From: Lacticaseibacillus parakribbianus
GTDB lineage: Bacteria > Bacillota > Bacilli > Lactobacillales > Lactobacillaceae
Length of the DNA stretch: 64,000 nt
Direction: 5' to 3'
Assembly: GCF_025490915.1 (NCBI RefSeq)
Contig: NZ_JANQBA010000002.1
Location: forward strand, 62,001-126,000
Every line of letters starts with the position of its first letter. The stretch's first letter is position 1. The position numbers and the translations under genes are program-made. The notes below the pieces were generated by a model, which made no database searches, was not told where the DNA came from, and worked only from the letters and a program-made list of their open reading frames with translations. This document shows, piece by piece, positions 40,039 to 64,000 of the stretch.

Positions 40039-41535
40039 TTACGCGCGGAAGTCGGCCAGTGCGGCCGACAGATCCTTGGTCTGCGGGTAAACCTGCCGGT
40101 ACAGCTTGTAGAGCTTGGCGTATTTGGCCACGTGCTCCGGGTTGGGCAGGTAGGTCTGCCGCTCGTGAACGAAGGTCTTGGCGCAGGCGTCAAAGTCCGC
40201 AAACCAGCCCAGGCCGACCGCCGCGATCATCGCGGCGCCAAGGCCTGGCCCCTGCTCGCTTTGCAGGCAAACCACCGGCTTGTCGAACACGTCGGCCTGG
40301 ATCTGCAACCACAACGGGCTGTGGGCCCCGCCACCGATCGAGGTCAGCTTGGTGAAGGTTTTGCCATGCGCCGCGTAGAGGTTCAGGATGTCCTTGAACG
40401 AGAAGGTCACGCCTTCCATCACCGCGCGAATGAAGTCGCCCTTGCCCTGCCGGCTGTCGACGCCGATGAAGCTGCCGCGAATCGTAGCGTCGGCGTAAGG
40501 AGTGCGTTCACCGACGATGTACGGCGTGAACAGCAGGCCGTTGGCGCCAATGCCGGTGTCAATCGTCGCCTGCATGAAATCGTCGAAGTCGTCATCCGGC
40601 GCGAACGTGTTTTTGAGCCAGCTCAGGCTGTAGCCGGCCGCCAGGGTTACCCCCATCGAGTAGTAGGCATTGGGAATCGCGTGGTTGAAAAAGTGCAAGT
40701 CGCCGTGGTAATCGTGGGTGACGTCCGGCTCGTAGCCCAGCACCACCCCGGAGGTCCCGATGCTGCACATGCCACGGTCGGGGTTGGTGATCCCGGCCCC
40801 GATGGCCCCGCAGGCGTTATCCGCACCGCCGCCGAACACCGGCAGACCCGGCTTCAAGCCGACAGCGGCCGCGAAGGTCGCAGTCAGGGTGCCGGCCTGA
40901 TCCGTCGCCTGGATCAACGGTGGGCACAGGCTTTCCGGCAGATCGAAGACTGCGCAGACGGCGCTGCTCCAGCGACCGGCGGCGACGTCGAGCATCACCG
41001 TGCCGGCGGCGTCCGACAGCTCCATTTGAATCTTGCCGGTCATCTTGTAGCGCAGGTAATCCTTGGGCAACAAGAACGTGGTGGCCTGGGCAAAAATCTC
41101 CGGCTCGTTCTCCTTAACCCACAGCAGCTTGGGCAGCGTAAAGCCCTCCAGCGGCCGGTTGCGCGTAATGTCGAGGTAGGTCTGGCCCATGGTGGCCATG
41201 ATCTCCGAAGACTGCTTGGTGGTACGGGTGTCGTTCCACAGGATCGCCGGACGCAGCGGCCGGCCGGCGGCGTTCAGCAGCACCAGGCCGTGCATCTGCC
41301 CGGAGTAACTCAGCCCCTTGATGTCTTCGGCTTGGACGCCGCTTTGCGCCAGCACGTCCTTGATCGCCCCGGCCGTCGCCTCGACCCAGTGATCGGGATT
41401 TTGCTCGTTGTAGCCGGGCTGCGGCTGGCTCAACGGATACGGCCGCGAGCCGGTGGCAACCACGGCGCCTTCCCGCGTGACCAAGAGGACCTTGACCGCG
41501 CTTGTTCCTAAATCGACCCCAATGACGTATTCCAT
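40039..41535 (-). CDS. xylB: Xylulokinase
   Basis: 498 residues, FGGY kinase; phosphorylates D-xylulose to xylulose 5-phosphate, the entry to the phosphoketolase/pentose pathway. N-terminal G-V-D-L-G-T-S-A-V-K phosphate loop, the S-G-Q-M-H-G substrate motif, and I-G-G-G-A-H-S-P-L-W near residue 420. ATG 41535 matches the family start. The Shine-Dalgarno is 29 bases away, separated by a hairpin (next entry). Own promoter with XylR and CcpA-type sites. Confidence 0.96.
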   Translation of the reverse strand: MEYVIGVDLGTSAVKVLLVTREGAVVATGSRPYPLSQPQPGYNEQNPDHWVEATAGAIKDVLAQSGVQAEDIKGLSYSGQMHGLVLLNAAGRPLRPAILWNDTRTTKQSSEIMATMGQTYLDITRNRPLEGFTLPKLLWVKENEPEIFAQATTFLLPKDYLRYKMTGKIQMELSDAAGTVMLDVAAGRWSSAVCAVFDLPESLCPPLIQATDQAGTLTATFAAAVGLKPGLPVFGGGADNACGAIGAGITNPDRGMCSIGTSGVVLGYEPDVTHDYHGDLHFFNHAIPNAYYSMGVTLAAGYSLSWLKNTFAPDDDFDDFMQATIDTGIGANGLLFTPYIVGERTPYADATIRGSFIGVDSRQGKGDFIRAVMEGVTFSFKDILNLYAAHGKTFTKLTSIGGGAHSPLWLQIQADVFDKPVVCLQSEQGPGLGAAMIAAVGLGWFADFDACAKTFVHERQTYLPNPEHVAKYAKLYKLYRQVYPQTKDLSAALADFRA

Positions 41536-41572
41536 AATTGTGTGACGCAGGGTTGCCCCTGCGACTCCTTTC
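41536..41572 (-). promoter_or_regulatory. Hairpin between Shine-Dalgarno and xylB start
   Basis: Minus strand GAAAGGAG (41565-41572), one T, then CGCAGGG-GCAA-CCCTGCG (41546-41563), then TCACACAATT and ATG. The 7-bp GC-rich stem has a GNRA tetraloop. Folded, the spacing is 11 bases; unfolded, 29. Confidence 0.75.
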
Positions 41573-41587
41573 GTGCGTTTTAAGTTT

Positions 41588-41641
41588 GTTAGTTATCTTT
41601 ACTTACCCTTAAATTGTAGCGGTTACACCCGGCGAACGCAA
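41588..41641 (-). promoter_or_regulatory. xylB promoter with cre-like and XylR-like sites
   Basis: Minus strand TTGCGT (41636-41641), 17 bp, TACAAT (41613-41618). A cre-like TGTAACCGCTACAA overlaps the -10 (41614-41627). A 19-bp element GTAAGTAAAGATAACTAAC (41588-41606) lies just downstream and matches the xylA site. Confidence 0.75.
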
Positions 41642-41665
41642 GCCCTTTCACGCGACCGGACACAG

Positions 41666-41694
41666 AAAAACGCACCGCCAATCGGCGGTGCGTT
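41666..41694 (-). terminator. Terminator of xylR (first copy)
   Basis: Minus strand AACGCACCGCC / GGCGGTGCGTT, loop GATT, then TTTTT. Confidence 0.88.
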
Positions 41695-41718
41695 CAGGTA
41701 ACATCTGTGTCGTTTCTG

Positions 41719-42918
41719 TCAATTCAACTCTCTGGCCGCGCCGCCTGCACCGTTCTCCTGGGTGCCGAAGGTCAGCTGGCCGGACTCGATGTTCAAGAGG
41801 TCATGGGTCAGCATCGCGCAGCCGCCCAGCAAGACGCAGTGCCGCACGTCGTCGACCAGGTCGATTTCGGTGGCCTCGGCAGTCAGGCTGGGCAGGTCCT
41901 TGCGAATCTGGGTCAAAAGCGGCGGCAGCTTGGCGATCAGCCCGGAGTTGATCATCACCCGCCGCGGATCCAGCGCCACGGTGATGTTGTAGATCACATT
42001 GGCGATGTAGCGGCAAAACCGCGCGAGCTCCTTTTCGACGACGGGGTCACCCGCTTGGTACAAGGCGATCACCCGGTCGCGGGTGATGGTCGAATCGCCG
42101 AGGCGGTCTCGCACGTGGTCGACGATGGCGGCCTCCGAGCAGATGCTTTCGATGGTCGTCGTCTGCCCGTTGGCGAAGAACGCCTGGTTGTACACCACCG
42201 TGTGGCCGATTTCGCCGGCCTCACCGTGGCGGCCGGTGTACAACTTGCCGTGGATGATGATACCGGCCCCGATCCCCTTGTGAATGCTGATGCAGACCAG
42301 GCTTTCGTCCTCGCGGCGCCGCTCGAAGTCGCGCTCGTACACCGCCGCCAGGTTCGCCTCGTTTTGCAGCCGGACCGGCACCGTGAAGGTCTCTTCAAGC
42401 ACCCGCGCGATGTCGACGCCGCCCAGGTCGATGAACGGCGAGAAGGTCACCTGGTTGTGGTGGACGATGCCGTGAACGGCAATCACGATGCCCAACAGCG
42501 GCAGGTGCGGCGGGGTCGCGCGGTCGTAATCGGCAATCCAGTCGGTAATCACCTTGAGCACGGCGTCAAAACTCAGGCCGCGAATTTCGATGCCTTCCTC
42601 GATCAACAGCTCGCCGGTCAGCCGGGCGGCGGCGATCACCAGGTAGTCGTACCCCCAGTCCATCGTGATGATGTAGCCGAGGTCGCGGTTGAAGGTCAAA
42701 ATCGTGGGCTTGCGCCCGCCGTTGTGGGTGCTGTCGCCTTGCCCCTGCTCGATCAAGTACCCCTTCTCGATCAAGTTGGCGACCACATCCGACACCGTGA
42801 CCTTGTTCAACCCGATGTTCTTGGAAATCTGACTGCGCGAAATCGTGCCGCGGTTGAACGCCTCGGTCAACACCCGCTTCTCGTTAAGCACCCGCAAAAG
42901 ATTCTTATCTGTCCGCAT
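41719..42918 (-). CDS. xylR: XylR-type ROK repressor, copy 1
   Basis: 399 residues: winged helix at ~15-75 containing [18 protein letters not shown], then a ROK (sugar kinase-like) effector domain with G-E-A-G-E-I-G-H. XylR proteins repress xyl operons and release DNA when xylose binds. ATG 42918 has GAGGAG upstream; the longer frame to 43023 crosses the promoter. Its helix-turn-helix is almost the same as in copy 2 at 47 kb. Lacks the ROK CxCG zinc cluster, as expected for a regulator without kinase activity. Confidence 0.92.
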   Translation of the reverse strand: MRTDKNLLRVLNEKRVLTEAFNRGTISRSQISKNIGLNKVTVSDVVANLIEKGYLIEQGQGDSTHNGGRKPTILTFNRDLGYIITMDWGYDYLVIAAARLTGELLIEEGIEIRGLSFDAVLKVITDWIADYDRATPPHLPLLGIVIAVHGIVHHNQVTFSPFIDLGGVDIARVLEETFTVPVRLQNEANLAAVYERDFERRREDESLVCISIHKGIGAGIIIHGKLYTGRHGEAGEIGHTVVYNQAFFANGQTTTIESICSEAAIVDHVRDRLGDSTITRDRVIALYQAGDPVVEKELARFCRYIANVIYNITVALDPRRVMINSGLIAKLPPLLTQIRKDLPSLTAEATEIDLVDDVRHCVLLGGCAMLTHDLLNIESGQLTFGTQENGAGGAARELN

Positions 42919-42976
42919 CCTGTACTCCTCACCGTGCGTCAGCCTGACCTGACACCCATACCGCACTGTTAATAGC

Positions 42977-42988
42977 CTTATTTTACCA
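42977..42988 (-). promoter_or_regulatory. Extended -10 of xylR copy 1
   Basis: Minus strand TGGTAAAAT (TAAAAT at 42980-42985). A poor cre-like sequence (10 of 14) lies about 20 bp upstream. Confidence 0.5.
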
Positions 42989-43021
42989 TACCTCCCCCGC
43001 CGCAACCGCTTTACCGACACC

Positions 43022-43055
43022 AAAACGGCGGCGAGATTAGACTCACTCGCCGCCG
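43022..43055 (-). terminator. Terminator of the GH42 gene
   Basis: Minus strand CGGCGGCGAG / CTCGCCGCCG then TTTT. Confidence 0.85.
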
Positions 43056-43062
43056 CTTGCGA

Positions 43063-45099
43063 TTACGCGCGAGGCGTCTTCAGAATCACCACGCCAAAGG
43101 CCGGCAGGTTCAGGGTGGCCGGCTGAGTCGCCCCGCTCAGCAGGTCAAGACCAGTTGGCGCCGGGTTAGCCACCGCGCAGGCCTTGGCCGTCGTGTTGAT
43201 GGCGAAGGTGTAGGTCGCCTGCCGGCTGTAGCGGTGCGTGACCTCGACGCCTGCGAACGGCTCAGCCGCGGTGAGGTCAAGCCCAGCCGCCGCGGCGATT
43301 TTGGTCAGCAAAAAGCGCAGTCCGGCTGCATCCAGCTGGGTTCCGACGTACAGCGCGTGGCCGCGGCCCAGGTCGTTTTGGCAAATCGCCGGGGCCCCGG
43401 TGTAAAACAGCTGGGCGTCGTCGTAGGTCGCCAGCACCTTGGCCGTGGTCGGGTGCGTGACATCGCACAGGAAGCTGGCCGAGCACGACTGGTCGGCCCC
43501 CAGCGCGACGTTAACCGTCGTCTCGGGCGGCAAGGCGTCGAACTCTTCGTTCCACAGCCCCAACACCTCCTGCAGGCTGCCCGGGTAGCCGCCGAGGTAG
43601 ACGTTGTCGTGATCGTCGACGATGCCCGACATGTAGGTGGTCACGAAGGTCCCGCCGCCTTGCACGTAGCTTGCGATCTTGGCCGACAGGGCCTCGGAGG
43701 TGGTGTACATCACCGGCGCGATCACGGCGGCAAAGCCGTCAAAAGGCGTCTCCTTGCCGATCATCGCGACGTCCAGCCCGGCATCGTAGCACATCTGATA
43801 GTACAGGTGGACCTGCTTGACGTAATCCATCTGCCGGCTCGGGCCGGTCGCGTACTCAACGCCCCAAAAGCTCGGCCAGTCGAACAAGACGGCAACTTTG
43901 GCGCGGTTGCGGCTGGCCAAGAGGTCGGCCGGCAACGACGCAAGCTCGGCGCCAAGCGCCTGGACCTCGCGAAAGACGCGGGTCTCGTGGGTACCGGTCG
44001 CCTCGGCGTGGGAGATCACCGCGCCGTGGAACTTCTCGATGCCGTTTTGAGATTGCTTCATCTGGAAGAACTGCACGGTGTTGGCGCCGTGAGCCACCGC
44101 CTGGTACGACAGCATCCGCATCTCACCGGGCTTCTTCAAGGCGCAGTACGGCTGCCAGTTCTGCTGGCTTGGCGTCTGCTCCATCAGCATGAACGGGGCC
44201 TGGCGCAGCCCGGCCATCAGGTCGTGCTTCATCGCCGTCTCGCTGGCCGGCGTGTCGAAGCTCGGGTAGTTGTCCCAGGAGACAATGTCCATCTCCTTGG
44301 CCCATTGGAAGTAGTCCAGGTCCTTTTGGGTGCTCATCAGGTTGGTGGTGATCGGGGTGGTCGCATCGACGGCGCGAATCGCCGCCTTTTCCAGCTTGAA
44401 GTTGGCCAACAAGGCATCGGATTGGAAGCGCCGGTAGTCAAGCGCCGCCCCGGCCAACACCGGCTTGTCAGAGCCGGCGTCGATCATGTCCGTCAGGTGC
44501 ATCGGCGGCAGGATCTCGGACCAGTCGTGGAAGGTGTGACCCCAAAAGTTGCTGTTCCAAGCGGCGTTGACCGCCGCCAGGTCCGGGTAGTGACCGCGCA
44601 GCCAGGTGCGAAAGGCCGAAGCACAGTTGTCGCAGTAGCACTGGCCGCCGTACTCGTTGCTGATGTGCCAGCAGACCAAGGCGGGATGGTCGTGGTAACG
44701 CGCGGCCAGCCGGGACACCAGGTCTTGGGCCAGGCTCTGGAAGTTCGGCGAGCTCGGGCAGGCGTTGTGGCGCATCCCCTGCCTGGCGTGGCGGCCGTCG
44801 ATGTCGGTTCGCGCCACATCCGGGTATTTTTCGATCACCCAGGCCGGGATCGCGCCGGTCGCGGTGGCCAGGACCACCTTCATCTGGTACTTGGCGGCCA
44901 GCGCCATGATTTTGTCCAGCAGGCTGAAGTCGTAGGTCGCCTCGTTGGGCTGAAGCAGCGCCCAGGAGAAGACGTTCAAGGTCAGCGAGTTGATGTGAGC
45001 TTGCCGCAGCTTGATCAGGTCCCCTTCCCAGGTCGCCTCGGGCCACTGCTCGGGATTGTAGTCGCCGCCAAACAGCAGCGGCAGGGTTTTAAGTGCCAT
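43063..45099 (-). CDS. GH42 beta-galactosidase
   Basis: 678 residues, family GH42, cytosolic (no signal peptide). Begins F-G-G-D-Y-N-P-E-Q-W-P, acid/base Glu in I-S-N-E-Y-G-G (~residue 147) and nucleophile Glu in F-M-L-M-E-Q-T-P (~residue 308); a Cys cluster C-Y-C-D-N-C just after the acid/base may bind zinc. GH42 enzymes release terminal beta-galactose (some act on alpha-L-arabinopyranosides). ATG 45099 has AAGGAGGA upstream. Located between xylA and xylR, suggesting galactose-bearing plant oligosaccharides as substrate. Confidence 0.93.
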   Translation of the reverse strand: MALKTLPLLFGGDYNPEQWPEATWEGDLIKLRQAHINSLTLNVFSWALLQPNEATYDFSLLDKIMALAAKYQMKVVLATATGAIPAWVIEKYPDVARTDIDGRHARQGMRHNACPSSPNFQSLAQDLVSRLAARYHDHPALVCWHISNEYGGQCYCDNCASAFRTWLRGHYPDLAAVNAAWNSNFWGHTFHDWSEILPPMHLTDMIDAGSDKPVLAGAALDYRRFQSDALLANFKLEKAAIRAVDATTPITTNLMSTQKDLDYFQWAKEMDIVSWDNYPSFDTPASETAMKHDLMAGLRQAPFMLMEQTPSQQNWQPYCALKKPGEMRMLSYQAVAHGANTVQFFQMKQSQNGIEKFHGAVISHAEATGTHETRVFREVQALGAELASLPADLLASRNRAKVAVLFDWPSFWGVEYATGPSRQMDYVKQVHLYYQMCYDAGLDVAMIGKETPFDGFAAVIAPVMYTTSEALSAKIASYVQGGGTFVTTYMSGIVDDHDNVYLGGYPGSLQEVLGLWNEEFDALPPETTVNVALGADQSCSASFLCDVTHPTTAKVLATYDDAQLFYTGAPAICQNDLGRGHALYVGTQLDAAGLRFLLTKIAAAAGLDLTAAEPFAGVEVTHRYSRQATYTFAINTTAKACAVANPAPTGLDLLSGATQPATLNLPAFGVVILKTPRA

Positions 45100-45113
45100 G
45101 AGAATCCTCCTTC

Positions 45114-45158
45114 TTTCAAAAAACGGTCGTGCAACATTCTGGGAATGTCGCACGACCG
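45114..45158 (-). terminator. Terminator of xylA
   Basis: Minus strand CGGTCGTGC.. / ..GCACGACCG with inner ACATTC pairing, then TTTTTT. Expression of the downstream GH42 gene would need readthrough. Confidence 0.85.
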
Positions 45159-45214
45159 CATGTGCTGCGATCACCGGGGGGATGGTCGCGGTGAGTTAAC
45201 GTTCAATCTTGGGA

Positions 45215-46555
45215 TTACTTCAGGGTCTCGATCATGTAGTGGTTCAGGGTGTCCTTGAGCTCCTCGAGGCGACCGGACTTGGTGGCAGCGAGCAGCGCGG
45301 ATTGTGGCTTGTCGATGATGTAATCGTTCAGGGACTTGAAGTCTTCCTTGCCGGCTTCGATGCTTGCGCCGATGCCTTCGTCGTAGCTTGCGTAGCGGTC
45401 CTTGATGAAGTCATCGAAGACGCGGTCTTCGTGCAGACGCTCCGCAACCTTCAAGCCGGCGGCAAAGGTATCCATGCCGACGATGTGGCCGTAGAACATG
45501 TCTTCTGGGGTGAAGCTGGAGCGACGTGGCTTGGCGTCGAAGTTCAGGCCACCCTTGCCCAGGCCGCCGTTTTCAACGACTTCGTACATCGCAAGCGTTG
45601 CTTCGTACAGGTCTGATGGGAACTCGTCAATGTCCCAGCCGATCAGCTTGTCGCCCTGGTTGGCGTCCAGGGAGCCGAGCAGCCCGGCCTCACGCGCCGT
45701 GCGGATCTCGTGCTGGTAGGTGTGGCCGGCGAGGTTGGCGTGGTTGCCTTCCAGGTTCAGCTTGTAGGTGCCATCCAGGCCGTAAGTCTTCATGAAGGCG
45801 ATGGTGGTGGCGGCGTCGAAGTCGTACTGGTGCATCATCGGTTCCTTAGGCTTTGGTTCAAGCAACAGCTGGCCGGTGTAGCCGATTTCCTTGGCGTAGT
45901 CGGCGGCCATGTGGAAGAACTTGGCCAGGTGTTCCTGCTCGCGAAGCATGTCGGTGTTCAAAAGCGTCTCGTAACCTTCACGGCCACCCCAGAACACGTA
46001 GTTCTCGGCGCCGACCTTCTTGGCGGTGTCGAGGCCTTCCTTGACCTGCGCAGCCGCAAAGGCGAAGATGTCGGCGAATGGGCTGGAAGCCGCACCGGAG
46101 ACAAAGCGTGGGTTGGTGAACATGTTGGCGGTGTTCCACAGCACCTTCATGCCGGTCTGCTTCTGGTAGTCGACGAACATGTCGGTGATGGTTTCGATGT
46201 TCTTGTTGGTTTCGCGCAGCGTGTCGCCTTCTGGGGCGATGTCACGGTCGTGGAAGCAGAAGAAGTCGACGCCCATCTTGTCGTAGAACTCAAAGGCCGC
46301 CTCGACCCGCGCCTTGGCCAGGTCCATGCCGGTCAGGCCGTTCCAAGGGCGAATGGCGGTGCCATCGCCGAAGATGTCGTTGAGCTGCTGGCCGAATGTG
46401 TGCCAGTAAGCGACGGAGAAGCGGAGCCAATCGCGCATCTTCTTGCCACCGACCACCTCATCGGCGTTGTAGTAGTGGTAGTTCAGCCCGGACTTCAGGC
46501 TGCTGGTGCCAACGAACGGGATCTTGTCAACGTTTGGAAAATATGTCTTAGCCAT
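45215..46555 (-). CDS. xylA: Xylose isomerase
   Basis: 446 residues, large (class II) type; isomerises D-xylose to D-xylulose with divalent metals. Signatures: F-C-F-H-D-R-D (catalytic His), [10 protein letters not shown] (metal Glu), N-L-E-G-N-H-A and D-A-N-Q-G-D (metal ligands). ATG 46555 has AAAGGA upstream; the frame to 46651 crosses the promoter. Own promoter with cre-like and XylR-like sites. Confidence 0.97.
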
Positions 46556-46592
46556 GCAAAAGTTTCCTTTCTTGTTAGCCGTTTTTAGGTTA

Positions 46593-46646
46593 GTTAGTAT
46601 ATTTAACTTACAGGTGAATTGTAGCGCTTTCAGCTTGCAAACACAA
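46593..46646 (-). promoter_or_regulatory. xylA promoter with cre-like and XylR-like sites
   Basis: Minus strand TTGTGT (46641-46646), 17 bp, TACAAT (46618-46623). cre-like TGAAAGCGCTACAA (46619-46632). Downstream GTAAGTTAAATATACTAAC (46593-46611) includes the inverted repeat AGTTA-N-TAACT. Same order and spacing as at xylB. Confidence 0.78.
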
Positions 46647-46689
46647 GCCATCCCCGCGACTTTTCTGAACTTTTTGACCGCGCCGGGGG

Positions 46690-47853: not shown

Positions 47854-47875
47854 AATTACTCCTTACTCGACTTGC

Positions 47876-49348: not shown

Positions 49349-49360
49349 GGTAGCCTCCTT

Positions 49361-50233: not shown

Positions 50234-50242
50234 CGTATCCTC

Positions 50243-51061: not shown

Positions 51062-51066
51062 GATTG

Positions 51067-52530: not shown

Positions 52531-52531
52531 G

Positions 52532-53188: not shown

Positions 53189-53220
53189 GTTTTTCCCCTC
53201 CGTGGCGGCGCCGACCAACA

Positions 53221-53258
53221 TAAAAGGGTGCAAGACCGCACACACCGTCTTGCACCCT
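53221..53258 (-). terminator. Terminator-like hairpin between ABC operon and esterase operon
   Basis: Minus strand AGGGTGCAAGAC / GTCTTGCACCCT then TTTT, 33 bp before the esterase start. Confidence 0.8.
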
Positions 53259-55203: not shown

Positions 55204-55221
55204 AATTCTTTAGTCCCCCTC

Positions 55222-55240: not shown

Positions 55241-55274
55241 TTTATGAATTAAAAGCGGTGAAACATCATTGCAA

Positions 55275-56189: not shown

Positions 56190-56206
56190 GATGTGCTCCT
56201 TTCCGA

Positions 56207-57172: not shown

Positions 57173-57198
57173 GATGATCCCCCTCGAAATAAATAGAC

Positions 57199-57228
57199 TT
57201 GCCAGGTACGAAATTAGTAGGCTATGAT
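57199..57228 (+). promoter_or_regulatory. Promoter of the YesL-like gene
   Basis: TTGCCA, 18 bp, TATGAT, 40 bp before the TTG start. Confidence 0.6.
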
Positions 57229-57267
57229 GGACAGCGTTATCACAAATCTAGAAAACAGGTGATTGTT

Positions 57268-57879
57268 TTGAAGTTTAACCCGAACAGTTCGTTCTTCCGC
57301 TTCATGGGTACGTTGGCCAGCTTCGCCTTGCTCAACTGGGTGTTTCTGCTCACGTGCCTGCCGATCTTCACGATCGGGGCCGCCCTCACTGCCATGCACG
57401 CGACGCAGCAGCGCTACCTGCGAATCGAGGCGACACCGCTTACAAAAACGTACCTTCAAAACTTTAAGCGAAACTTCTTGCAGGCCACCGGCGCTTGGCT
57501 CATCGTGCTGGTGCTAGCCGCCGTGTTCGGCTTCAACATCGCCTTTTGGCGGGGCAATGCCAACCTGCTGGCGACGCCGGTGCTGGTCTTGATGGTGCTG
57601 GCCGCCGTGGTGCTGGTGCTGGTGGTCGAACTCGTCATGCCTTTGATCGGCCTGTTCCAAAACACCGTGCGGCAAACCTTCAAGAACGCCGTGCTGATGA
57701 TCATTCCCAATTTCTTTTGGGTCCTGCTTCTGATTGCGATCGACGGATGCGCGTTCGCCATCTTTTACCTGACTAATATTGGTCGCGCCATGTTCCTGAT
57801 TTTCGGCTTCGCCTTCTGGCAATACATCAAGGCCTTCGCGTACCGGCGGATCCTGGCCAAATACACCGACGAAATCTGA
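57268..57879 (+). CDS. DUF624 (YesL-like) membrane protein
   Basis: 203 residues, five or six membrane helices, family DUF624, whose members nearly always accompany LplB/YtcP-type sugar ABC transporters; function unknown. Start TTG 57268 (M-K-F-N-P-N-S-S-F-F-R-F) with AGGTGA five bases upstream. Unlike its neighbours it lies on the plus strand, inverted between GH3 and the permeases. Confidence 0.82.
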   Translation: MKFNPNSSFFRFMGTLASFALLNWVFLLTCLPIFTIGAALTAMHATQQRYLRIEATPLTKTYLQNFKRNFLQATGAWLIVLVLAAVFGFNIAFWRGNANLLATPVLVLMVLAAVVLVLVVELVMPLIGLFQNTVRQTFKNAVLMIIPNFFWVLLLIAIDGCAFAIFYLTNIGRAMFLIFGFAFWQYIKAFAYRRILAKYTDEI

Positions 57880-57887
57880 AAAAAAGC

Positions 57888-57948
57888 TGTAAGCGCTTCA
57901 ACATCAAGTATTATAAATCGCTTTCGTTGATTTGTAAATATAATTTAC
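57888..57948 (-). promoter_or_regulatory. Strong minus-strand promoter with cre-like and operator dyad
   Basis: Minus strand TTTACA (57933-57938), 17 bp, TATAAT (57910-57915). cre-like TGTAAGCGCTTCAA (57888-57901) lies at the predicted start site. The inverted repeat GTAAAT-ATA-ATTTAC (57934-57948), continuing as ACTAAC, covers the -35 and resembles the xylA element at 15 of 19 positions. It points away from GH3 toward the ABC genes, across the YesL-like gene. Confidence 0.7.
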
Positions 57949-57962
57949 TAACCAATTTGAAT

Positions 57963-60623
57963 TTAGGCCGTAACGCCAGTGTTCATGCGGACTAGTGTTA
58001 CCGGCACATCGGTGCTCAGCCGCAGCGTTTGGTCTAGCCCACCGGTCAAAGCCAGGCTTATTGGTTGCAACCAACCTGCACCCTCAAACACCGTTTCGGC
58101 CGTCTCGTTCCCCGAGGCGGCTTTTAGTTTGCCGCCCTGCTCGGCATACGCCCAAACGGTCACGGCACCGTCAAAGCGCAGGTGATCGTAGGTGACCGAA
58201 CCGCCGGCTTCAAGCGCCACGGCCTCGTAGTGATCGGCCTTGGTGGTCAAGGTGGCGCCGGTGCTTGCGTCAAAGGCCTTAGCCGCCAGCGGCTGGGCCA
58301 GGTCGTAAGGCGCAACGGCCTGCCCGAGGTGCGGCAAGCCCAGCACGGCGGCGTGGTCGAAGGCGTCAAAGCCGACGCTAAGCGTGTAGTCCCCGACCGG
58401 GAAAAGCGGCCGGCGGCGCTTGGCGTCGTACCAGGCGAAGTCCCTGAGGTCGGCAGCCAAGGTCAGCTGGGCCGTGGCGCCTGGTTCAAGCGTCAGCTTC
58501 TGGAAGGCCACCAGTTGACGGCGGTCGGCGCGGCCGGCCAGGTTGCTTGCGTTCAGGTAGGCCTGCACGGTGTCGGTCACCGCAAAGTCCTCGTGGTTGA
58601 CGACATCCACGCTGATGGTCAAGGCGGTGCCGGCGCGGTGAACCGCGGCCTCAAGCAGCCGCAGCTTACCGTAAGTCAGGCCGTAGCCGAACGGGTAAGA
58701 CACCTGGGCGGGGTCGGCATACTGGTAGGTCAGCCGGCGCTTTTCGATGTCGTACTCGCGCATGGACCCACCCTGCCAGGCGGCGTTGTACCAAGTCTGG
58801 GCGAGCTTGCCCGTCGGCGGCGTCACGCCGGTCAACACGTTGGCCAGGGCCGTGCCCAGCGACTGGCCGGCGTAACCCACCGTCAGCAAGGCGTCGCAGC
58901 GCAGCTTGGAGACGTCGAAGGGGTAGCCGGCGATCAGTACCGCCGCCGTCTTCACCCCGGCGTCATGCACCGCGTCGATCAAGGTCTCCTGGGCCTGGGG
59001 CAGCGCGATGTCCGGTCGGTCCTCGGTTTCCCGCGCGATCAGCAGCGGGTGGTTCCCCGCGGCGACCACGGCCTTGGTGTGGCCCGGCAAGGCCGCAAGC
59101 ACCCGGGTGAGGCCCGGGTCCACCACGGTGATCTGGCCGATGCGCCGGCCGCGCCCACCGGCCTGAAGCGAGTTGCGGTCGCTGGCGGCAAAATCATGCG
59201 CCACGGCGAACAGCTGCCCGTCTCCGTCCAGCACAAAGGCCTCGCGGATCACCCAGTCGTAGACCTCGGTGCCGTTGAGTTCAAGCTGACCGTCCTCGGT
59301 GAAGCGCAGGTAGCGGTGGCTGGCGCGGTCGCGCAAGAAGACCTGGCCTTGCTGCAGCCGCTCGATTTCGTAGGTCAACCCGCCAAGCCCCGGCTGGGCC
59401 GGCACGGCCAGATCAAGCGCCAGCGTCGCAAAGTCGTTGCTGTTGACCACGTCGAGGCGTGAGCCCAAGGCCTTTTGCATGCCCTGGGCCAAGGTCTCGG
59501 TGTTTTGCGGCAGGGTCGCGTACCAGTCCCGCACGAAGCGGTCGGCGGCAGGCCCGGTCAAAAGCACCCGGTCTTGGGTCGTCAGCGGCAGCGTCTTGTC
59601 GTGGTTTTCAAGCAAGACCGCGCCGCCGGCCGTGACCGCCTGCACCACCGCGTCGCTGGCGGCGGTGCCGATGGTCGCCTGGTCGTACTCGGCGAAGGGC
59701 TCGACGTCTTCGAGCTGCCCCAGCCGGGCGCGAACCTTCAGCGTGTTGGTGACGGCCCGGGTGATGTCTTGAACGCTGATCTGGCCCTCGGCCAAGGCGG
59801 CGAAAGCGGCGGCCTCGACCTTATCGGGCTCGTCGACGAAGCAGTCGATGCCCTTTTTCAAGGCGTCTGCCAGCGCGTCTTCGAAGCGGTCGTAGTAGTG
59901 GTAATCCTCGACGTTCAGGGTCAAGGCGCCGCCGTCGGTCACGATGCAGCCGTCCATCCCCCAGGCCCCCTTGACCGTCGCCAAAAGCTCCGGCGACTGC
60001 ATCATCGGTACCCCATTGACGCCGTTGTAGCCGGTCATCATCGACTGGGCGTGGTGGTCGCGAAAGGCGAACTTGAAGGGCCGCAGGTAGTACTCGTGCT
60101 TCATGTGCGGGGTCAGCGAGTTGGACTCGCTGCCGCGATTGGCCTCGGTGTTGTTGGCCATGAAGTGCTTCGGCGCCGCGGCGACCAGCAGGTAATCGCC
60201 GGTGCCTTGCATGCCGTCGATGTAGCCGCCGGCCACGCTGCCGGCCAGCCTCGGATCCTCGCCGTAAGCCTCTTCGTTGCGGCCCCAGCGCGGATCGCGC
60301 TCCATGTCGATGGTCGGGGCCCATGGCATCAGCCGTCCCGTTCGGCCGGTGATGTTGTACAGGGCCCGGGCCTCGGTGCCGACCACGTGGCCGGCCTTTT
60401 GGGCGAGCTCCGGATCCCAGGTCTGGGCCAGCGTCAGGGGAATCGGCAGGCTGGTCAGGTGGTAGTGCTCGCGATCGACGATGCCGTGAGCCGCCTCGCC
60501 GCCGATGTTAAAGGCCCCCAGGTGCAGCCGAGGGATCGGCTTTTGCTGCCGCGACAACAGGCCGATTTTCTCGGCCAAAGTCAGCTTGGCGACCAGCGCC
60601 GTGGCCTTGTCTCGTGCGTTCAT
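57963..60623 (-). CDS. GH3 beta-glycosidase
   Basis: 886 residues, cytosolic. Barrel domain with P-K-H-F-M-A-N-N-T-E and nucleophile Asp230 (C-I-V-T-D-G-G-A-L), alpha/beta sandwich split by an insertion (~414-505) that looks like a beta-trefoil/fascin-type module (F-L-R-D-R-A-S-H-R-Y-L-R-F), and a C-terminal fibronectin-III-like domain. GH3 members remove beta-glucose or beta-xylose. Overlaps GH43 by four bases (ATGA), so translation is coupled. Confidence 0.93.
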   Translation of the reverse strand: MNARDKATALVAKLTLAEKIGLLSRQQKPIPRLHLGAFNIGGEAAHGIVDREHYHLTSLPIPLTLAQTWDPELAQKAGHVVGTEARALYNITGRTGRLMPWAPTIDMERDPRWGRNEEAYGEDPRLAGSVAGGYIDGMQGTGDYLLVAAAPKHFMANNTEANRGSESNSLTPHMKHEYYLRPFKFAFRDHHAQSMMTGYNGVNGVPMMQSPELLATVKGAWGMDGCIVTDGGALTLNVEDYHYYDRFEDALADALKKGIDCFVDEPDKVEAAAFAALAEGQISVQDITRAVTNTLKVRARLGQLEDVEPFAEYDQATIGTAASDAVVQAVTAGGAVLLENHDKTLPLTTQDRVLLTGPAADRFVRDWYATLPQNTETLAQGMQKALGSRLDVVNSNDFATLALDLAVPAQPGLGGLTYEIERLQQGQVFLRDRASHRYLRFTEDGQLELNGTEVYDWVIREAFVLDGDGQLFAVAHDFAASDRNSLQAGGRGRRIGQITVVDPGLTRVLAALPGHTKAVVAAGNHPLLIARETEDRPDIALPQAQETLIDAVHDAGVKTAAVLIAGYPFDVSKLRCDALLTVGYAGQSLGTALANVLTGVTPPTGKLAQTWYNAAWQGGSMREYDIEKRRLTYQYADPAQVSYPFGYGLTYGKLRLLEAAVHRAGTALTISVDVVNHEDFAVTDTVQAYLNASNLAGRADRRQLVAFQKLTLEPGATAQLTLAADLRDFAWYDAKRRRPLFPVGDYTLSVGFDAFDHAAVLGLPHLGQAVAPYDLAQPLAAKAFDASTGATLTTKADHYEAVALEAGGSVTYDHLRFDGAVTVWAYAEQGGKLKAASGNETAETVFEGAGWLQPISLALTGGLDQTLRLSTDVPVTLVRMNTGVTA

Positions 60624-62140
60624 TGCGCGTCATCCTCCTTAGGAAACGTCAGCGAAAAGTCCGTGAAGGTGATCCAATCGGCATCCGGGGCGTCGGTTTG
60701 CTCGGTGAACAAGCCGAGCATCACGCCGGTGAAGTTACCGGCCAGCTCGGACGACAGGTACTGGGCCTGGGCCTCGCCGAGGTCGTAGCGCTTGCCTTGG
60801 GCCTCCGCGAAGAAGTGGTAAGTGTAGTTGGTGGTTTCAAGGCTCAGGGTCACCGGACCGGCCGGTAACAGCTGCACGTGATCCAGCGTCGTGGCCGGGC
60901 CGACGCGCAGGCGCCGGGCGACTTTCACTTGGTCCCCCACCCGCTCGACGATCGCGTCGTAGTGCTGAGATTCGGTCATGTAGGCCGTCAGCCCCGCGGC
61001 GTTGGCCGGGACGTCCACGGTCACTTGCACCGTCGAGAAAAAGGCGCGTTGGCGCATGAACAAGGCGGTCGGGCTGACCTGCGTCTCCTCAAGCAAGGCC
61101 TGGTTGGGCCGCATCGCCAGTACGGTCTGGTCGAAGCAGTAACGGTCGTTGTCCGGCTCGCGCAGGGTCACCCATTCGCGGCCGATGGTCGTGTTGTGGA
61201 AACTCAGCGGCACCAGCGGTGAGTGCTGCTGCACGTTTTCCAAGCCAGGGGCCGTCATCGTCGCCCGGGTAGTGCCGTGGTCGCCGGCGGTGAACCAGCC
61301 GTCTTGGTCGAAGGTGACCGGCGTCAGGTAGGTCTCGCGGCCCATCGTGTGCTGCTGAATCCAGCGGTCCAGCTGCCGAAACGCCAGGTGGATCAGGAAC
61401 CAGTGGCCGTGGCCGTCGTCGACCAAGTCGGCGTGACCGGTACCTTGAATCTGGTAGCCGCCGAGGTTGCGGTTGGTCAACACCGGATTGTGGGCGTAGT
61501 TAACGAATGGGCCGAACGGCGCGTCGCCGCGAGCGTAGACCATCATGTGGCCGTACTCGGTGCCGCCTTCGCTGGCCAGCAGGTAGTAGCGCCCATCAGC
61601 CTTGTACAGGTGCGGCCCTTCCAGGTAGCGGCCGCCGGCGCCGGTCCAGATCACCTTGGACGGCGTGAGCTTCTTGCCGGTTGCGATGTCGATTTCGCAC
61701 TGGGTGATGCCGTGGTTGCCGGCGTCGTCGTCGCCGTTGCTCATGAAGTAGGTCTTGTCGCCTTCAAAGTACAGGGACGGGTCGATACCGCCTTGCTCGA
61801 CTGGAATCGGGTCGGACCACTCGCCGTGAATATCGTCGGTGTAGACGTAGAAGTTGCCGTTGTGATCGACGTTGGTGGTGACCATGTAAAAGCGCCCGTC
61901 GTGGTAGCGCAAAGTCGGGGCGTAGATGCCGCCGCTGGTGTTGGAGCCGCCAAGCGGCAGCTGGCTCGGCCGCGTCAGGACGTGGCCAATCTGCGTCCAG
62001 TTCACCAGGTCGTGGCTTTCAAACAGTGGCACCCCGGGAAAGTAGTTGAACGAGCTGTTCACCAGGTAGTAGGTGTCGCCGACGCGAATGGCACTCGGAT
62101 CCGGGTAAAAGCCCGGCACAACAGGATTTTGATATGTCAT
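60620..62140 (-). CDS. GH43 beta-xylosidase
   Basis: 506 residues: five-bladed propeller with the base Asp in G-F-Y-P-D-P-S, pKa-tuning Asp in G-I-D-P-S-L-Y and acid Glu in L-E-G-P-H-L-Y, followed by a concanavalin-like C-terminal domain of the beta-xylosidase type. Releases xylose (or arabinose) from short oligosaccharides; cytosolic. Of two adjacent ATGs the second (62140) is better spaced from AGGAGG. Confidence 0.94.
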   Translation of the reverse strand: MTYQNPVVPGFYPDPSAIRVGDTYYLVNSSFNYFPGVPLFESHDLVNWTQIGHVLTRPSQLPLGGSNTSGGIYAPTLRYHDGRFYMVTTNVDHNGNFYVYTDDIHGEWSDPIPVEQGGIDPSLYFEGDKTYFMSNGDDDAGNHGITQCEIDIATGKKLTPSKVIWTGAGGRYLEGPHLYKADGRYYLLASEGGTEYGHMMVYARGDAPFGPFVNYAHNPVLTNRNLGGYQIQGTGHADLVDDGHGHWFLIHLAFRQLDRWIQQHTMGRETYLTPVTFDQDGWFTAGDHGTTRATMTAPGLENVQQHSPLVPLSFHNTTIGREWVTLREPDNDRYCFDQTVLAMRPNQALLEETQVSPTALFMRQRAFFSTVQVTVDVPANAAGLTAYMTESQHYDAIVERVGDQVKVARRLRVGPATTLDHVQLLPAGPVTLSLETTNYTYHFFAEAQGKRYDLGEAQAQYLSSELAGNFTGVMLGLFTEQTDAPDADWITFTDFSLTFPKEDDAQ

Positions 62141-62159
62141 CATGGCCTCCTAAAGGTTC

Positions 62160-62178
62160 GTTCGTATAGCTTACGAAC
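62160..62178 (-). promoter_or_regulatory. Inverted repeat in the GH43 leader
   Basis: GTTCGTA-TAGCT-TACGAAC, perfect 7-bp arms, between the promoter and the ribosome binding site. Operator or leader hairpin. Confidence 0.6.
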
Positions 62179-62191
62179 AAGATTCAGGTTC

Positions 62192-62221
62192 ATCATAACG
62201 TATTTTGCGGCGAACGCAAGC
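62192..62221 (-). promoter_or_regulatory. Promoter of GH43-GH3
   Basis: Minus strand TTGCGT (62214-62219), 16 bp, TATGAT (62192-62197). The -35 region GCTTGCGTTCGCCG is identical over 14 bases to that of xylB. Confidence 0.65.
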
Positions 62222-62244
62222 GCATTCATTTTGGGGCGGCGACA

Positions 62245-62277
62245 CAAAAAACGCGCCCCTTATTGAAGGAACGCGCG
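62245..62277 (-). terminator. Terminator of the AraC-family gene
   Basis: Minus strand CGCGC..CCTT / AAGG..GCGCG with CAAT loop, then TTTTTT. Confidence 0.75.
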
Positions 62278-62355
62278 AAAAATATTGTGGCAACCGGCCG
62301 CCACCGTGCCCGACCCGCACCGGCCGCCACCGGCTTGCGCCAGACATCGCGCGGC

Positions 62356-63240
62356 TCACCCCTTGTGCTGCGTCGCGGCGCGGTAGGCGCGAGGCGTCTG
62401 GTGGCAGCGGCGCAAGAAGAGCTTGTTGAAGTAAGAGATGTTGTTGAAGCCGACCTGCCCGGCGATTTCCCCCACCGCAAGCGACGTGTCGCGCAGCCGG
62501 GCCTGGGCCTGCTCGATGCGCTGGTCGTTGAGGTAATCCGTCACCGTCGCCTTGGTCGCAGCCTTGAAAATTCGGCACAGGTGGCTCTTGCTCAGGCTGA
62601 ATTCGTCGGCCAGCCCCGCCAGCGTCAAGGGCTCCGCGTAATGGGTGCGAATGGTCGCCATCACGGCCTTGGCCAAGTCGACATGGGCGCTTGGCACCGA
62701 AGCGGCCGGGGTCACGCCCAGCCGCGCCGCCCACAGCGCCGCCCAGACCAAGTAGAGCTGGGCTTTCACCGCCAGCTCAAAGCCCGGCTGCTCCGCCGTG
62801 CCGCTGACGCGAATCGCATCGAGGGCCCGGCGCAGCGCCCGGTAAGCGGCATCGGCCGGGGCGAATCGCACCGGCAGCGTCACCCGCCGCTGCAGCACCG
62901 GATCCAAGTAGCGCTGCTGTACCGCGTCGGGGGCCGCCGAGCGGATGAACACCGGGTCAAAGACGATCGCGTAAAAACCAAAGGGGGTGCCGACCGGGGC
63001 GGTGATCGCATGGAGCTGATCGGGCAAGAGCAGCGCGATGTCACCCAGGCCAAGCGCCACCGTCTGGCCGTCGACGTGCAGCGCCGCTTCCCCTTCCATC
63101 ACCACCAGCAGCTCGCACTCCGGGTGCCAGTGGGCCGGCACCCGCTCGCTGCGCAGCGCATCGGTGGTGAATTCATGCACCCGCAGCGGGAACAGCGCGG
63201 TACCGTGGGGTTCTTGTTCGCGTAAGGTCAGATTGGGCAT
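62356..63240 (-). CDS. AraC-family regulator
   Basis: 294 residues: N-terminal cupin sensing domain (H-W-H-P-E-C-E-L-L-V-V, L-G-D-I-A-L-L-L-P) and a C-terminal double helix-turn-helix (~residues 190-288: S-K-S-H-L-C-R-I-F-K and V-G-F-N-N-I-S-Y-F-N-K-L-F). ATG 63240 with GAGGAGG upstream. Lies between GH43-GH3 and a divergent GH31 gene and probably activates one or both in response to an imported sugar. Confidence 0.92.
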   Translation of the reverse strand: MPNLTLREQEPHGTALFPLRVHEFTTDALRSERVPAHWHPECELLVVMEGEAALHVDGQTVALGLGDIALLLPDQLHAITAPVGTPFGFYAIVFDPVFIRSAAPDAVQQRYLDPVLQRRVTLPVRFAPADAAYRALRRALDAIRVSGTAEQPGFELAVKAQLYLVWAALWAARLGVTPAASVPSAHVDLAKAVMATIRTHYAEPLTLAGLADEFSLSKSHLCRIFKAATKATVTDYLNDQRIEQAQARLRDTSLAVGEIAGQVGFNNISYFNKLFLRRCHQTPRAYRAATQHKG

Positions 63241-63267
63241 GGCGGCCTCCTCGTCAATATCGTGTTA

Positions 63268-63342
63268 GAAGTGGTCAATTTCATTCAAGTCTCTCGCCAC
63301 TTCATGCCTTATATTAGCACTATAAGTGATTTCGCGAAATCA
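63268..63342. promoter_or_regulatory. araC/GH31 divergent control region
   Basis: Perfect palindrome TGATTTCGCGAAATCA at 63327-63342, directly after a -10-like TATAAG (63321-63326). A second inverted repeat GAAGTGG..CCACTTC spans 63268-63303. The proteins that bind are unknown. Confidence 0.55.
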
Positions 63343-63368
63343 TCAACGTGTTAATACGGAGGCAAATC

Positions 63369-64000
63369 ATGCAATACACCAACGATAACGGGGCCCTTGT
63401 GATCGGCCACCAGAACGAAACACTGCGGCTGGAGGCCTGGGGCCAAGATGCCCTGCGCGTTCGCGTCACCGAGTACCCGACCTTCACGCCCAACGACTGG
63501 GCGCTGAGCGAACCGGTGCCGGCTGCCCAGCGCCAAGCCGACATCACCATCGATGAGGCGGCCGGCACCGCCGTGATCGAAAACGGGCGGCTTAAAGCGA
63601 CGGTCAACGCGGCCGGGGTCCTGAGCTTTTTCAAGGACGGCAAGCTGATCTTGCGCGAGTACTACCGCTCGTACTTTGGCACCGAAAGCGACGAGTCGCG
63701 TTGCCTGAAGATCATCGCCCGCGACTGGAAACCGATTGTCGGCGGCGACTACGGGCTGACCTTGCGCTTTGATTCCAACGACGGCGAGAAGATTTTTGGC
63801 ATGGGCCAGTACCAGCAAAAGTACCTGGACCTCAAAGGCTGCACCCTGGAGCTTGCCCAGCGCAACTCCCAGGTCACCGTACCCTTCGCCGTGTCGAGCC
63901 TGGGCTACGGCTTCTTGTGGAACCACCCCGGCGTCGGTTCCGTCACCTTCGGCAAGAACATGACCGAGTGGCACGCGGATGCGACCAAGCAGCTGGACTA
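63369..64000 (+). CDS. GH31 family glycosidase, 5' part (probable alpha-xylosidase)
   Basis: 210 codons are visible and the frame runs off the right edge. ATG 63369 has GGAGG upstream. The N-terminal beta-sandwich is of GH31 type (F-G-M-G-Q-Y-Q, L-D-L-K-G, V-P-F-A-V-S-S-L-G-Y-G-F-L-W-N), closest in my memory to xyloglucan alpha-xylosidases; the catalytic barrel lies outside the window. No signal peptide. Divergent from the AraC-type regulator. Confidence 0.85.
   Translation, partial: MQYTNDNGALVIGHQNETLRLEAWGQDALRVRVTEYPTFTPNDWALSEPVPAAQRQADITIDEAAGTAVIENGRLKATVNAAGVLSFFKDGKLILREYYRSYFGTESDESRCLKIIARDWKPIVGGDYGLTLRFDSNDGEKIFGMGQYQQKYLDLKGCTLELAQRNSQVTVPFAVSSLGYGFLWNHPGVGSVTFGKNMTEWHADATKQLD

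Follow-up and report, generated by a model that had tools for sequence, protein, structure and literature searches.

The 64,000-nucleotide stretch of Lacticaseibacillus parakribbianus DNA analysed here (the window) ends in a cluster of genes for the uptake and breakdown of oligosaccharides, which lie on the reverse strand unless stated otherwise. Profile scans of the window found all of the locus genes, with open reading frames, at the positions given below, and confirmed the gene set of the original prediction, namely an importer, GH31, GH43, GH3, GH42, GH29 and GH1 enzymes, a ROK kinase, two esterases, xylA, xylB and regulators. All of the evidence on the locus is computational. Signal peptides and the lipobox were judged by eye on the translations, and every hydrolase lacks a signal peptide, as had been claimed. 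The called starts of the GH29, GH42, xylA and GDSL reading frames are probably overlong. Neither tRNA genes nor Rfam families were detected by scanning the window.

The importer comprises an oligosaccharide-binding lipoprotein (53455-55203; PF01547 and alignments; lipobox LLAACSSN) and two ABC permeases (55275-56189 and 56207-57172; both PF00528). A gene for a DUF624/MusI-like membrane protein (57199-57879; PF04854, with NF052431 below its cut-off) lies on the forward strand, opposite to the importer operon. Xylose isomerase is encoded by xylA (45215-46651; TIGR02630, 683 bits against a cut-off of 533, the match beginning at residue 37) and xylulokinase by xylB (40039-41535; TIGR01312, 588 bits against 380). 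The three predicted regulators were recovered: ROK-family regulator 1 (41719-43023; PF00480), ROK-family regulator 2, a XylR candidate (46690-47853; PF00480 and a weak HTH_24 match), and a stand-alone AraC-family regulator with a cupin-type domain (62356-63240; PF12833, PF02311), divergent from the GH31 gene.

The window holds the first 217 codons of the GH31 gene (63348-64000, forward strand). Extension past 64 kb revealed one continuous open frame of 672 aa (L009:7348-9366, corresponding to G000:C12:125348-127366). Among solved structures, its product is nearest to the alpha-xylosidase MeXyl31 (5zn6, E 8.3e-238), with similarity over the full length and alignment of the segments carrying the Asp residues that we take to be catalytic, which upholds its prediction as a probable alpha-xylosidase. 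The YicI model NF007940 scored 248.5 bits, below the cut-off of 606. Both the MeXyl31 and YicI types act on isoprimeverose-like alpha-1,6 xylosides.

The GH43 protein, which has a C2 domain (60620-62143; PF04616, PF17851), is nearest to the arabinofuranosidase BoGH43A (5jow, E 7.5e-129), followed by a GH43 beta-xylosidase. The large-form GH3 (57963-60623; PF00933/PF01915) has an insert within its second catalytic domain and a Glu in the motif GGEAAHG, at a position where Glu marks beta-xylosidases and Asp beta-glucosidases. This residue (E43) is invariant in all seven sequences compared. The best NCBIfam model is Xyl3A, at a score far below its cut-off, and the N-terminal part alone as query matched glucosidases and xylosidases alike. 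The GH3 thus looks beta-xylosidase-like at one residue; with this Glu and mixed best matches, the proposed reading as an obvious beta-glucosidase is not supported, and, as it carries Glu instead of Asp, a classical beta-glucosidase for the backbone is not apparent among the locus genes.

The GH1 (47876-49348; PF00232) is of the Gan1D-like 6-phospho-beta-galactosidase/glucosidase type, its best PDB match being 4ze4 (E 4.2e-195), which we take to be Gan1D. The segment S440-W441-...-K447-R-Y449 aligns with 4ze4/4ze5 and is invariant in 9/9 sequences, providing a Ser-Lys-Tyr triad, presumably phosphate-binding, together with a specificity Trp. The best solved relatives being 6-phospho-beta-glycosidases, the reading as a plain GH1 beta-glucosidase, as first suggested, was given up after this alignment. 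A specificity role for the Trp is described in PMC10360150. The ROK sugar kinase (49361-50233) is beta-glucoside-kinase-like: NF042998 (BglK) is the best NCBIfam model, at 175.9 bits and below the cut-off of 550, and the predicted structure (pLDDT 87.6) has Lmo2764 (4htl) as its top Foldseek match.

The GH42 beta-galactosidase (43063-45174; PF02449, PF08532) has 3tts, also a beta-galactosidase, as its best solved relative (E 2.5e-206). The GH29 (51067-52629), with a likely start near codon 34, scores above the PF01120 cut-off, which establishes family membership. Its best PDB matches, 7snk and then 7ljj, are fucosidase/alpha-L-galactosidase structures. In a survey of GH29, the exo-alpha-L-galactosidase BpGH29 clusters with fucosidases said to free fucose from xyloglucan (PMC11189522). 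The two predicted acetylesterases are a GDSL esterase (52532-53245; PF13472) and an alpha/beta-hydrolase (50243-51070) that matches BD-FAE in Pfam and, below cut-off, the lp_1002 arylesterase as best NCBIfam model. They stand as esterases, for which acetyl is one possible acyl group.

A 19-bp operator-like palindrome, matched with a pattern derived from the window's own sites, occurs upstream of xylB (41588-41606), xylA (46593-46611, inside the overlong 5' end of the called ORF) and the importer operon (57934-57952). A variant form, recovered with a relaxed pattern only, precedes GH43-GH3 (62160-62178), and no operator-like site was found before GH31 within the window. In front of the importer operon, in what is probably its promoter region (57880-57962, reverse strand), the operator overlaps TTTACA, followed after 17 bp by TATAAT (57910-57938) and then by a cre-like site. 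Judged by eye, this arrangement is repeated in all eight Lactobacillaceae loci that have the binding protein. Because the palindrome is common to the xylose genes, it ties the importer operon and GH43-GH3 to xylose. A XylR-like ROK repressor acting at it would render the importer operon, GH43-GH3, xylA and xylB xylose-responsive, and the AraC regulator may govern GH31. ROK regulator 2 is present in 8/8 of the binding-protein-bearing Lactobacillaceae genomes; regulator 1 has an orthologue only in G277 among the locus neighbourhoods compared.

We searched for homologous loci in 397 Lactobacillaceae genomes, together with Bifidobacteriaceae loci. The importer with GH29 was found in 8 of the 397, belonging to two genera. 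A 13-gene core is present in all eight genomes with the binding protein, which argues that the cluster is more than a chance association. The GH31 clade (at least 74% identity) occurs in nine of the 397, and the eight binding-protein genomes all fall within those nine. GH42 lies in the cluster in 5/8 and GH31 nearby in 4/8; in the other four, GH31 lies some 35 kb away or on a different contig. Genomes with GH31 outside the main cluster number five (G198, G134, G110, G052 and G200). It directly precedes xylA-xylB in G052 (Lapidilactobacillus mulanensis), while G200 has GH31, GH29, GH1 and the ROK kinase, with no binding protein detected. The locus of G083 looks broken.

The importer and GH29 also occur together in Bifidobacteriaceae, where 7 of 9 locus flanks contain a GH31 of another type and two of nine loci a GH5 (PF00150). 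All three GH31 proteins scored against the YicI model, two bifidobacterial and that of G083 (L090, L094, L114), exceeded its cut-off. Compared with the window, the bifidobacterial loci have a YicI-type GH31 and mostly a D-type GH3, and an adjacent ROK and GH1 pair appears in one of eight genomes, counting locus flanks only. At the sequence level, this shows an importer/GH29 module common to both families, with seemingly interchangeable alpha-xylosidase types (MeXyl31 versus YicI). A tree of GH29 groups the genes of the eight Lactobacillaceae loci in a single clade (100/100). As the bifidobacterial branching has no firm order and two rows are long-branched, the tree gives no direction of transfer.

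No secreted endo-enzyme was found in the genome itself among GH5, GH9 and GH10, the families searched. Two of its three GH5 matches exceeded the cut-off and turned out to be GH1 proteins, eliminating them as endo-xyloglucanase candidates, and the third (L080) fell below it. The sole GH9 has no visible signal peptide and adjoins a SIS-domain protein, so it is probably an amino-sugar enzyme. GH10, the xylanase family searched, had no match in the genome. Arabinose isomerase is present, and Fucose_iso_N1 gave no match. The description of the route as near-complete can therefore hold for oligosaccharides only, with no secreted endo-xyloglucanase found in GH5 or GH9 and Fucose_iso_N1 unmatched.

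The XyGUL of the Gram-negative Bacteroides ovatus handles xyloglucan with periplasmic GH31, GH43 and GH3 enzymes and a secreted endo-xyloglucanase. The window has the same GH31, GH43 and GH3 set, with BoGH43A closest to its GH43, although its enzymes are cytoplasmic. A route for xyloglucan oligosaccharides with an ABC importer, GH42, GH31 and GH3 has been shown experimentally in Ruminiclostridium cellulolyticum, where the oligosaccharides are taken up intact and cleaved within the cell and the GH3 beta-glucosidase acts on de-xylosylated oligosaccharides (PMC4780118). The same source describes a binding protein that binds XXXG, xyloglucan-induced genes, secreted xyloglucanases in the genome and a two-component system with an AraC-like regulator in every cluster of its Fig. 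12a; cellobiose is handled by a cellobiose phosphorylase (PMC8576529). The window resembles this described locus in its two permeases with a family-1 binding protein, its cytoplasmic GH42, GH31 and GH3 and its AraC-like regulator. It differs in having GH29, GH43, two esterases, xylA, xylB, ROK regulators and the ROK kinase/GH1 pair, in a GH3 that is not clearly a beta-glucosidase, in that no secreted xyloglucanase was found in the families searched (GH5, GH9), and in an AraC regulator that stands alone, with no two-component system in the cluster.

The XG-1 islands of marmoset Bifidobacterium are predicted to degrade xyloglucan with alpha-xylosidases, alpha-fucosidases and beta-glucosidases (PMC8406136); set beside that description, the bifidobacterial loci found here have the window's importer family and GH29. 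In Levilactobacillus brevis ATCC 367, a cluster with an alpha-xylosidase, a xyloside transporter, a sugar kinase and a PTS part was suggested to serve xyloglucan-oligosaccharide use, though its specificity was called undetermined, and the same figure legend names an AraC regulator (PMC7125115). This lactic acid bacterium likewise combines a BglK-like kinase and an alpha-xylosidase, but no binding-protein importer, GH29, GH42 or GH43 is named for its cluster there. Gram-positive xyloglucan-oligosaccharide loci are thus already known from R. cellulolyticum and predicted in marmoset Bifidobacterium, and are now extended to a defined Lacticaseibacillus and Lapidilactobacillus group. This predicts which lactic acid bacteria could scavenge xyloglucan fragments of fruit and vegetables. 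Ten Lactobacillus strains grew on a cranberry arabino-xyloglucan and pectic oligosaccharide fraction, no locus being named in that report (PMC9319371).

From the computed gene content, homologies, conservation and common palindrome, we infer the substrate, the order of steps, their regulation and the kinase step. The locus probably imports xyloglucan oligosaccharides derived from degradation by other organisms and dismantles them in the cytoplasm. The evidence supports imported oligosaccharides that are xylose-bearing, fucosylated or L-galactosylated, and probably arabinosylated and acylated. Xyloglucan fragments fit best, given the alpha-xylosidase identity, a distant alpha-xylosidase in a like context in another phylum, the palindrome of the xylose genes and the two bifidobacterial GH5. 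Fragments produced by other organisms would enter via the binding-protein ABC importer and lose their acyl groups first, to the esterases. GH29 would strip alpha-L-fucose or alpha-L-galactose, GH42 beta-galactose, GH43 arabinofuranose and perhaps beta-xylose, and GH31 alpha-xylose from the non-reducing glucose. Xylose would pass to XylA and XylB, and glucose or cellobiose units could be freed at least partly by the ROK kinase and the Gan1D-like GH1. Of the joint route proposed originally, cytoplasmic handling of imported decorated oligosaccharides survives, and a plain beta-glucosidase role for GH1 and an obvious one for GH3 are not supported.

Complex cereal (glucurono)arabinoxylan, whose side chains include such structures, is an unlikely though credible source of the oligosaccharides. 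GH3 and GH43 would then remove beta-xylose and arabinose, GH29 alpha-L-galactose, GH42 galactose, GH31 rare alpha-xylose and the BD-FAE-like esterase feruloyl or acetyl groups. The Glu of GH3 and its distant Xyl3A match, the second-ranking GH43 beta-xylosidase, the proximity of GH29 to an exo-alpha-L-galactosidase, the BD-FAE match, and xylA/xylB with their common palindrome all agree with such a diet. However, GH31 is nearest to MeXyl31 and its bifidobacterial counterpart is YicI-type, the genome has no GH10 match, cellulase-family GH5 lies in two related loci, and the GH1/ROK pair has no obvious role on xylan.

That xyloglucan, xylan and galactoside enzymes are merely co-located, with no common substrate, would explain the mobility of GH31/AraC and GH42, but seems improbable in view of the conserved 13-gene core, a GH31 clade that accompanies the importer in 8/8 genomes and two distant alpha-xylosidase types that recur beside it. 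Host or milk fucosylated glycans are a very improbable substrate: clusters for host glycans also contain GH29 and GH42, yet here these stand with xylose genes, an alpha-xylosidase, GH43 and the xylose-gene palindrome, no hexosaminidase was seen among the scanned locus genes, and several carriers belong to species isolated from plant ferments.

For the xyloglucan backbone, one tentative and rather doubtful route is that GH31 takes off the xylose that caps the terminal glucose at O6, after which this exposed position is phosphorylated by the ROK kinase and glucose 6-phosphate is released by the Gan1D-like GH1. If true, this would replace the beta-glucosidase on which known xyloglucan pathways rely and deliver its product directly into glycolysis. 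In a milder version, the pair would only take over the task of a cellobiose phosphorylase, on the cellobiose that is left. A ROK kinase with 45-100% identity occurs without a match of at least 60% to the bifidobacterial D-type GH3 in 10/10 Lactobacillaceae and in G403, three of these genomes showing a partial match of 41-42%. Neither is found in G397 and G398, and the D-type GH3 is present without the kinase in G400, G401 and G402. A strict rule of D-type GH3 or ROK kinase, never both, is nevertheless only a tendency with exceptions among the 18 genomes: G399 and G404 have the D-type GH3 and a kinase (41% and 36% identity), there with no adjoining GH1.

The gene classes of the original prediction were all borne out by Pfam and NCBIfam scans, and its GH31 gene, cut by the window end, is complete beyond it as a single open frame of 672 aa. 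The own genome assembly comprises 2.82 Mb in 32 contigs, the window being G000:C12:62001-126000. The neighbours beyond GH31, a GGDEF-domain ORF and an OpuAC-type betaine transporter, are unrelated to the cluster, which therefore spans xylB (40039) to GH31 (window 63348, end G000:C12:127366). The importer, consisting of a binding lipoprotein (53455-55203) and two permeases, has no ABC ATPase gene in the locus, and two TOBE_2 domains, which occur in MalK-type ATPases, are encoded elsewhere in the genome. The nearest named relative of the binding protein is that of Lacticaseibacillus kribbianus (95%), followed by those of L. jixianensis, L. mingshuiensis and L. yichunensis (77%).

We infer the substrate specificities of the locus from sequence, reading it as import and cytoplasmic digestion of xyloglucan oligosaccharides, with complex arabinoxylan as a less likely rival substrate. 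The best solved relative of the GH31 protein is the alpha-xylosidase MeXyl31 (E 8.3e-238, 794 bits, residues 16-671), whose FWLDEAEPE and SGDI segments align with FWLDNAEPD and SGDV in the window protein; the latter falls below the NCBIfam cut-off for YicI-type alpha-xylosidases (248 vs 606 bits). Among solved structures, the arabinofuranosidase BoGH43A ranks first for GH43 (E 7.5e-129) and a GH43 beta-xylosidase second (E 8.2e-111), so that its activity may be either. GH42 is closest to the beta-galactosidase 3tts, while one esterase matches BD-FAE and lp_1002 (the latter below cut-off) and the other belongs to the GDSL family. The best solved relatives of GH29 are 7snk, an alpha-L-fucosidase, and then 7ljj, an exo-alpha-L-galactosidase that we take to be BpGH29. 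A GH29 survey clusters BpGH29 with fucosidases for which release of xyloglucan fucose is reported (PMC11189522), and a Saccharolobus GH29 is described as taking fucose off apple xyloglucan oligosaccharides (PMC8037949). Fucose_iso_N1 had no match in the own genome, although fucose is the expected GH29 product.

Three surveys, each of 397 genomes sampled from Lactobacillaceae, retrieved GH29 (E <= 1e-40) in 14 genomes, the GH31 protein (E <= 1e-60) in 33 and the binding-protein profile (E <= 1e-150) in eight. Only nine genomes belong to the GH31 clade of at least 74% identity, the next homologues reaching at most 53%. All eight binding-protein genomes fall among these nine (hypergeometric 6e-16), and among the 26 counted genomes of the window's genus the two sets, of five each, coincide (1.5e-5); since the genomes are related, these figures exaggerate the significance. 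Both permeases, the binding protein, GH29, the alpha/beta-hydrolase esterase, the ROK kinase, GH1, GH3, GH43, DUF624, ROK regulator 2, xylA and xylB are present in all eight, with xylA-xylB of Lapidilactobacillus mulanensis adjoining GH31 on a contig separate from the main cluster. The GDSL esterase occurs in six (missing in L. yichunensis and L. mingshuiensis), GH42 within the cluster in five (Lapidilactobacillus achengensis has a 52% GH42 ~4 kb away), and GH31 with AraC close to the cluster in four; in the other four, GH31 is ~35 kb away (Lap. achengensis) or on a different contig of a draft assembly. The ninth GH31-clade genome, G200, keeps GH31, GH29, GH1, the ROK kinase, xylA and xylB, and the profile search (E <= 1e-150) detected no binding protein in it. 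Another genome, G083, has a damaged-looking locus (a short GH29, a GH3 remnant, a split GH43 and a YicI-type GH31), and three more (G089, G021 and G181) have GH29, with the cluster absent from the stretches examined.

The own genome also contains a second glycan locus (G000:C30:50001-70000) with a GH29 (52% identity), a MeXyl31-like GH31 (~50%), a GDSL esterase, GH30, DUF2961, a ROK regulator, permeases and DUF624. A paralogue of the binding protein (G000:C14:14708-16531), found likewise in L. kribbianus and L. jixianensis, lies on a 20-kb contig that bears a rolling-circle-type Rep protein and a P-type ATPase and is possibly a mobile element.

The binding-protein alignment was scanned over 84,980 species genomes, a pattern-based search that recovers close relatives only. 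It returned 22 loci, two of them weak (21-24% identity) and 20 clear relatives (47-95%), the latter divided between Lacticaseibacillus/Lapidilactobacillus (9) and Bifidobacteriaceae (11; Aeriscardovia, Alloscardovia and Bifidobacterium). GH29 was present in the flank examined in 16 of the 20 (seven and nine, respectively) and was not found in the examined flanks of L083, L095, L098 and L100. Seven of the nine bifidobacterial GH29 loci (two of the seven from one species) have a GH31 of 26-29% identity inside the cluster; the two that were scored and the GH31 of G083 exceed the YicI cut-off (1157-1200 vs 606 bits). The recurrence of two distant GH31 alpha-xylosidase types with the same importer is expected if the substrate bears alpha-xylose. 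Furthermore, a GH5 lies next to GH31 and GH43 in two of the nine, those of B. moukalabense and B. bohemicum (PF00150, E 1e-45 and 1e-41), with segments (GWNLGNTFD and GWNAGNTLDA, respectively) that we take to resemble those of beta-1,4-glucanases, which favours a glucan backbone over xylan. Beside another bifidobacterial locus, L094:4424-5713 encodes a possible further deacylase, whose matches are to esterase-like proteins of the beta-lactamase fold and in no case reach the cut-off.

A search of the own genome that covered GH5, GH9 and GH10 detected no secreted enzyme of the first two families and no member of the third. A GH9 protein without a visible signal peptide (L151, G000:C28, ~81.5-83.3 kb) adjoins a GlmS/SIS-like protein and is probably an amino-sugar enzyme. 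In the open-licence literature searched, we came across no description of this locus from Lactobacillaceae. XG-1 islands are in print for marmoset Bifidobacterium (PMC8406136), a role in xyloglucan-oligosaccharide use has been suggested for an L. brevis cluster (PMC7125115), and ten Lactobacillus strains are reported to grow on arabino-xyloglucan and pectic oligosaccharides fractionated from cranberry (PMC9319371).

Ruminiclostridium cellulolyticum is described as importing whole oligosaccharides, from which GH42 takes galactose before GH31 and GH3 alternate, yielding xylose, glucose and cellobiose (PMC4780118). The window locus fits the same order of steps, with extra side-chain enzymes of its own, but differs in the glucose step. 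All four top-ranking solved relatives of GH1 carry the name 6-phospho-beta-galactobiosidase or 6-phospho-beta-galactosidase (E 4e-195 to 1e-179), and the first three are presumably Gan1D. The C-terminal motif S-W-L-N-G-Y-R-K-R-Y aligns in register with that of these relatives, in which its Ser, Lys and Tyr bind the 6-phosphate, and S440, W441, K447 and Y449 are unchanged in nine of nine locus homologues. Gan1D is reported to have both 6-phospho-beta-galactosidase and -glucosidase activity, with the preference set by Trp-433 (PMC10360150). The ROK kinase, a protein of 290 aa that lacks a DNA-binding domain, has BglK as its top NCBIfam model, at 176 bits, under the cut-off of 550. The structure nearest to its AlphaFold2 model (pLDDT 87.6) is 4htl, Listeria Lmo2764 (32% identity), deposited as a putative N-acetylmannosamine kinase; its gene is, we believe, annotated elsewhere as a beta-glucoside kinase.

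The GH3 protein has its catalytic domains, and its matches are divided between beta-glucosidases and beta-xylosidases. The Glu in GGEAAHG, typical of beta-xylosidases at that position, is unchanged in 7/7, and Asp takes its place in three GH3 from bifidobacterial sister loci (DDGPMG twice, SDGPMG once). In this large GH3 (57963-60623), an insert also enlarges the second catalytic domain, so that 199 profile positions are spread over 316 residues; the GH3 of B. simiiventris (L099:3282-6785; 415 residues) has such an insert too, and the Glu motif is likewise present in it (GSEAAHG).

With a Gan1D-like GH1 and a BglK-like kinase side by side, and with none of the locus genes clearly a beta-glucosidase, we propose that the kinase would phosphorylate a glucose O6 once this is free, either in cellobiose or at a de-xylosylated end, and that GH1 would then release glucose 6-phosphate. 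Against this proposal, GH1 is not adjacent to the kinase in two bifidobacterial genomes with a distant kinase and an Asp-bearing GH3. Also against it, the ROK kinase may simply be a glucokinase, and the genome may encode further beta-glucosidases outside the locus.

A 19-bp palindrome, GTWARTWWANWTWAYTWAC, was built from the window's own sites before xylB, before xylA and at 57934. It has eight overlapping matches at three places in the window against 0.02 expected (100 dinucleotide shuffles), a score that is partly circular because it derives from those same sites. Independent support comes from the eight binding-protein-bearing Lactobacillaceae loci, all with the palindrome (<=2 mismatches) at the position equivalent to 57934. 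At the same tolerance, it is found near the xylA start in five other genomes (L. kribbianus, Lap. achengensis, Lap. wuchangensis, Lap. mulanensis and G200), and, with the pattern relaxed, a further site appears upstream of GH43-GH3, both in the window and in L028. The window has no site before GH31/AraC; in Lap. mulanensis, a 2-mismatch site lies ~30 bp before GH31. We infer that the regulator is a XylR-type ROK repressor; Firmicutes XylR sites are treated in PMC2873477.

The site at 57934 overlaps a promoter match, TTTACA-17-TATAAT (11/12), in a 1.2-kb surrounding with two promoter-like sites vs 0.6 in shuffles. The same boxes, followed by a cre-like sequence (weakest in L036), were seen by eye in 8/8 loci, directed at the permeases. 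Within window 57173-57962, DUF624, encoded on the opposite strand and with a promoter match of its own, separates the importer operon from the operon's best promoter match. On this layout, transcription of the importer genes would cross DUF624 in antisense, resembling a noncontiguous operon. By eye, the placement of the promoter beyond DUF624 is repeated in all eight binding-protein-bearing Lactobacillaceae loci.
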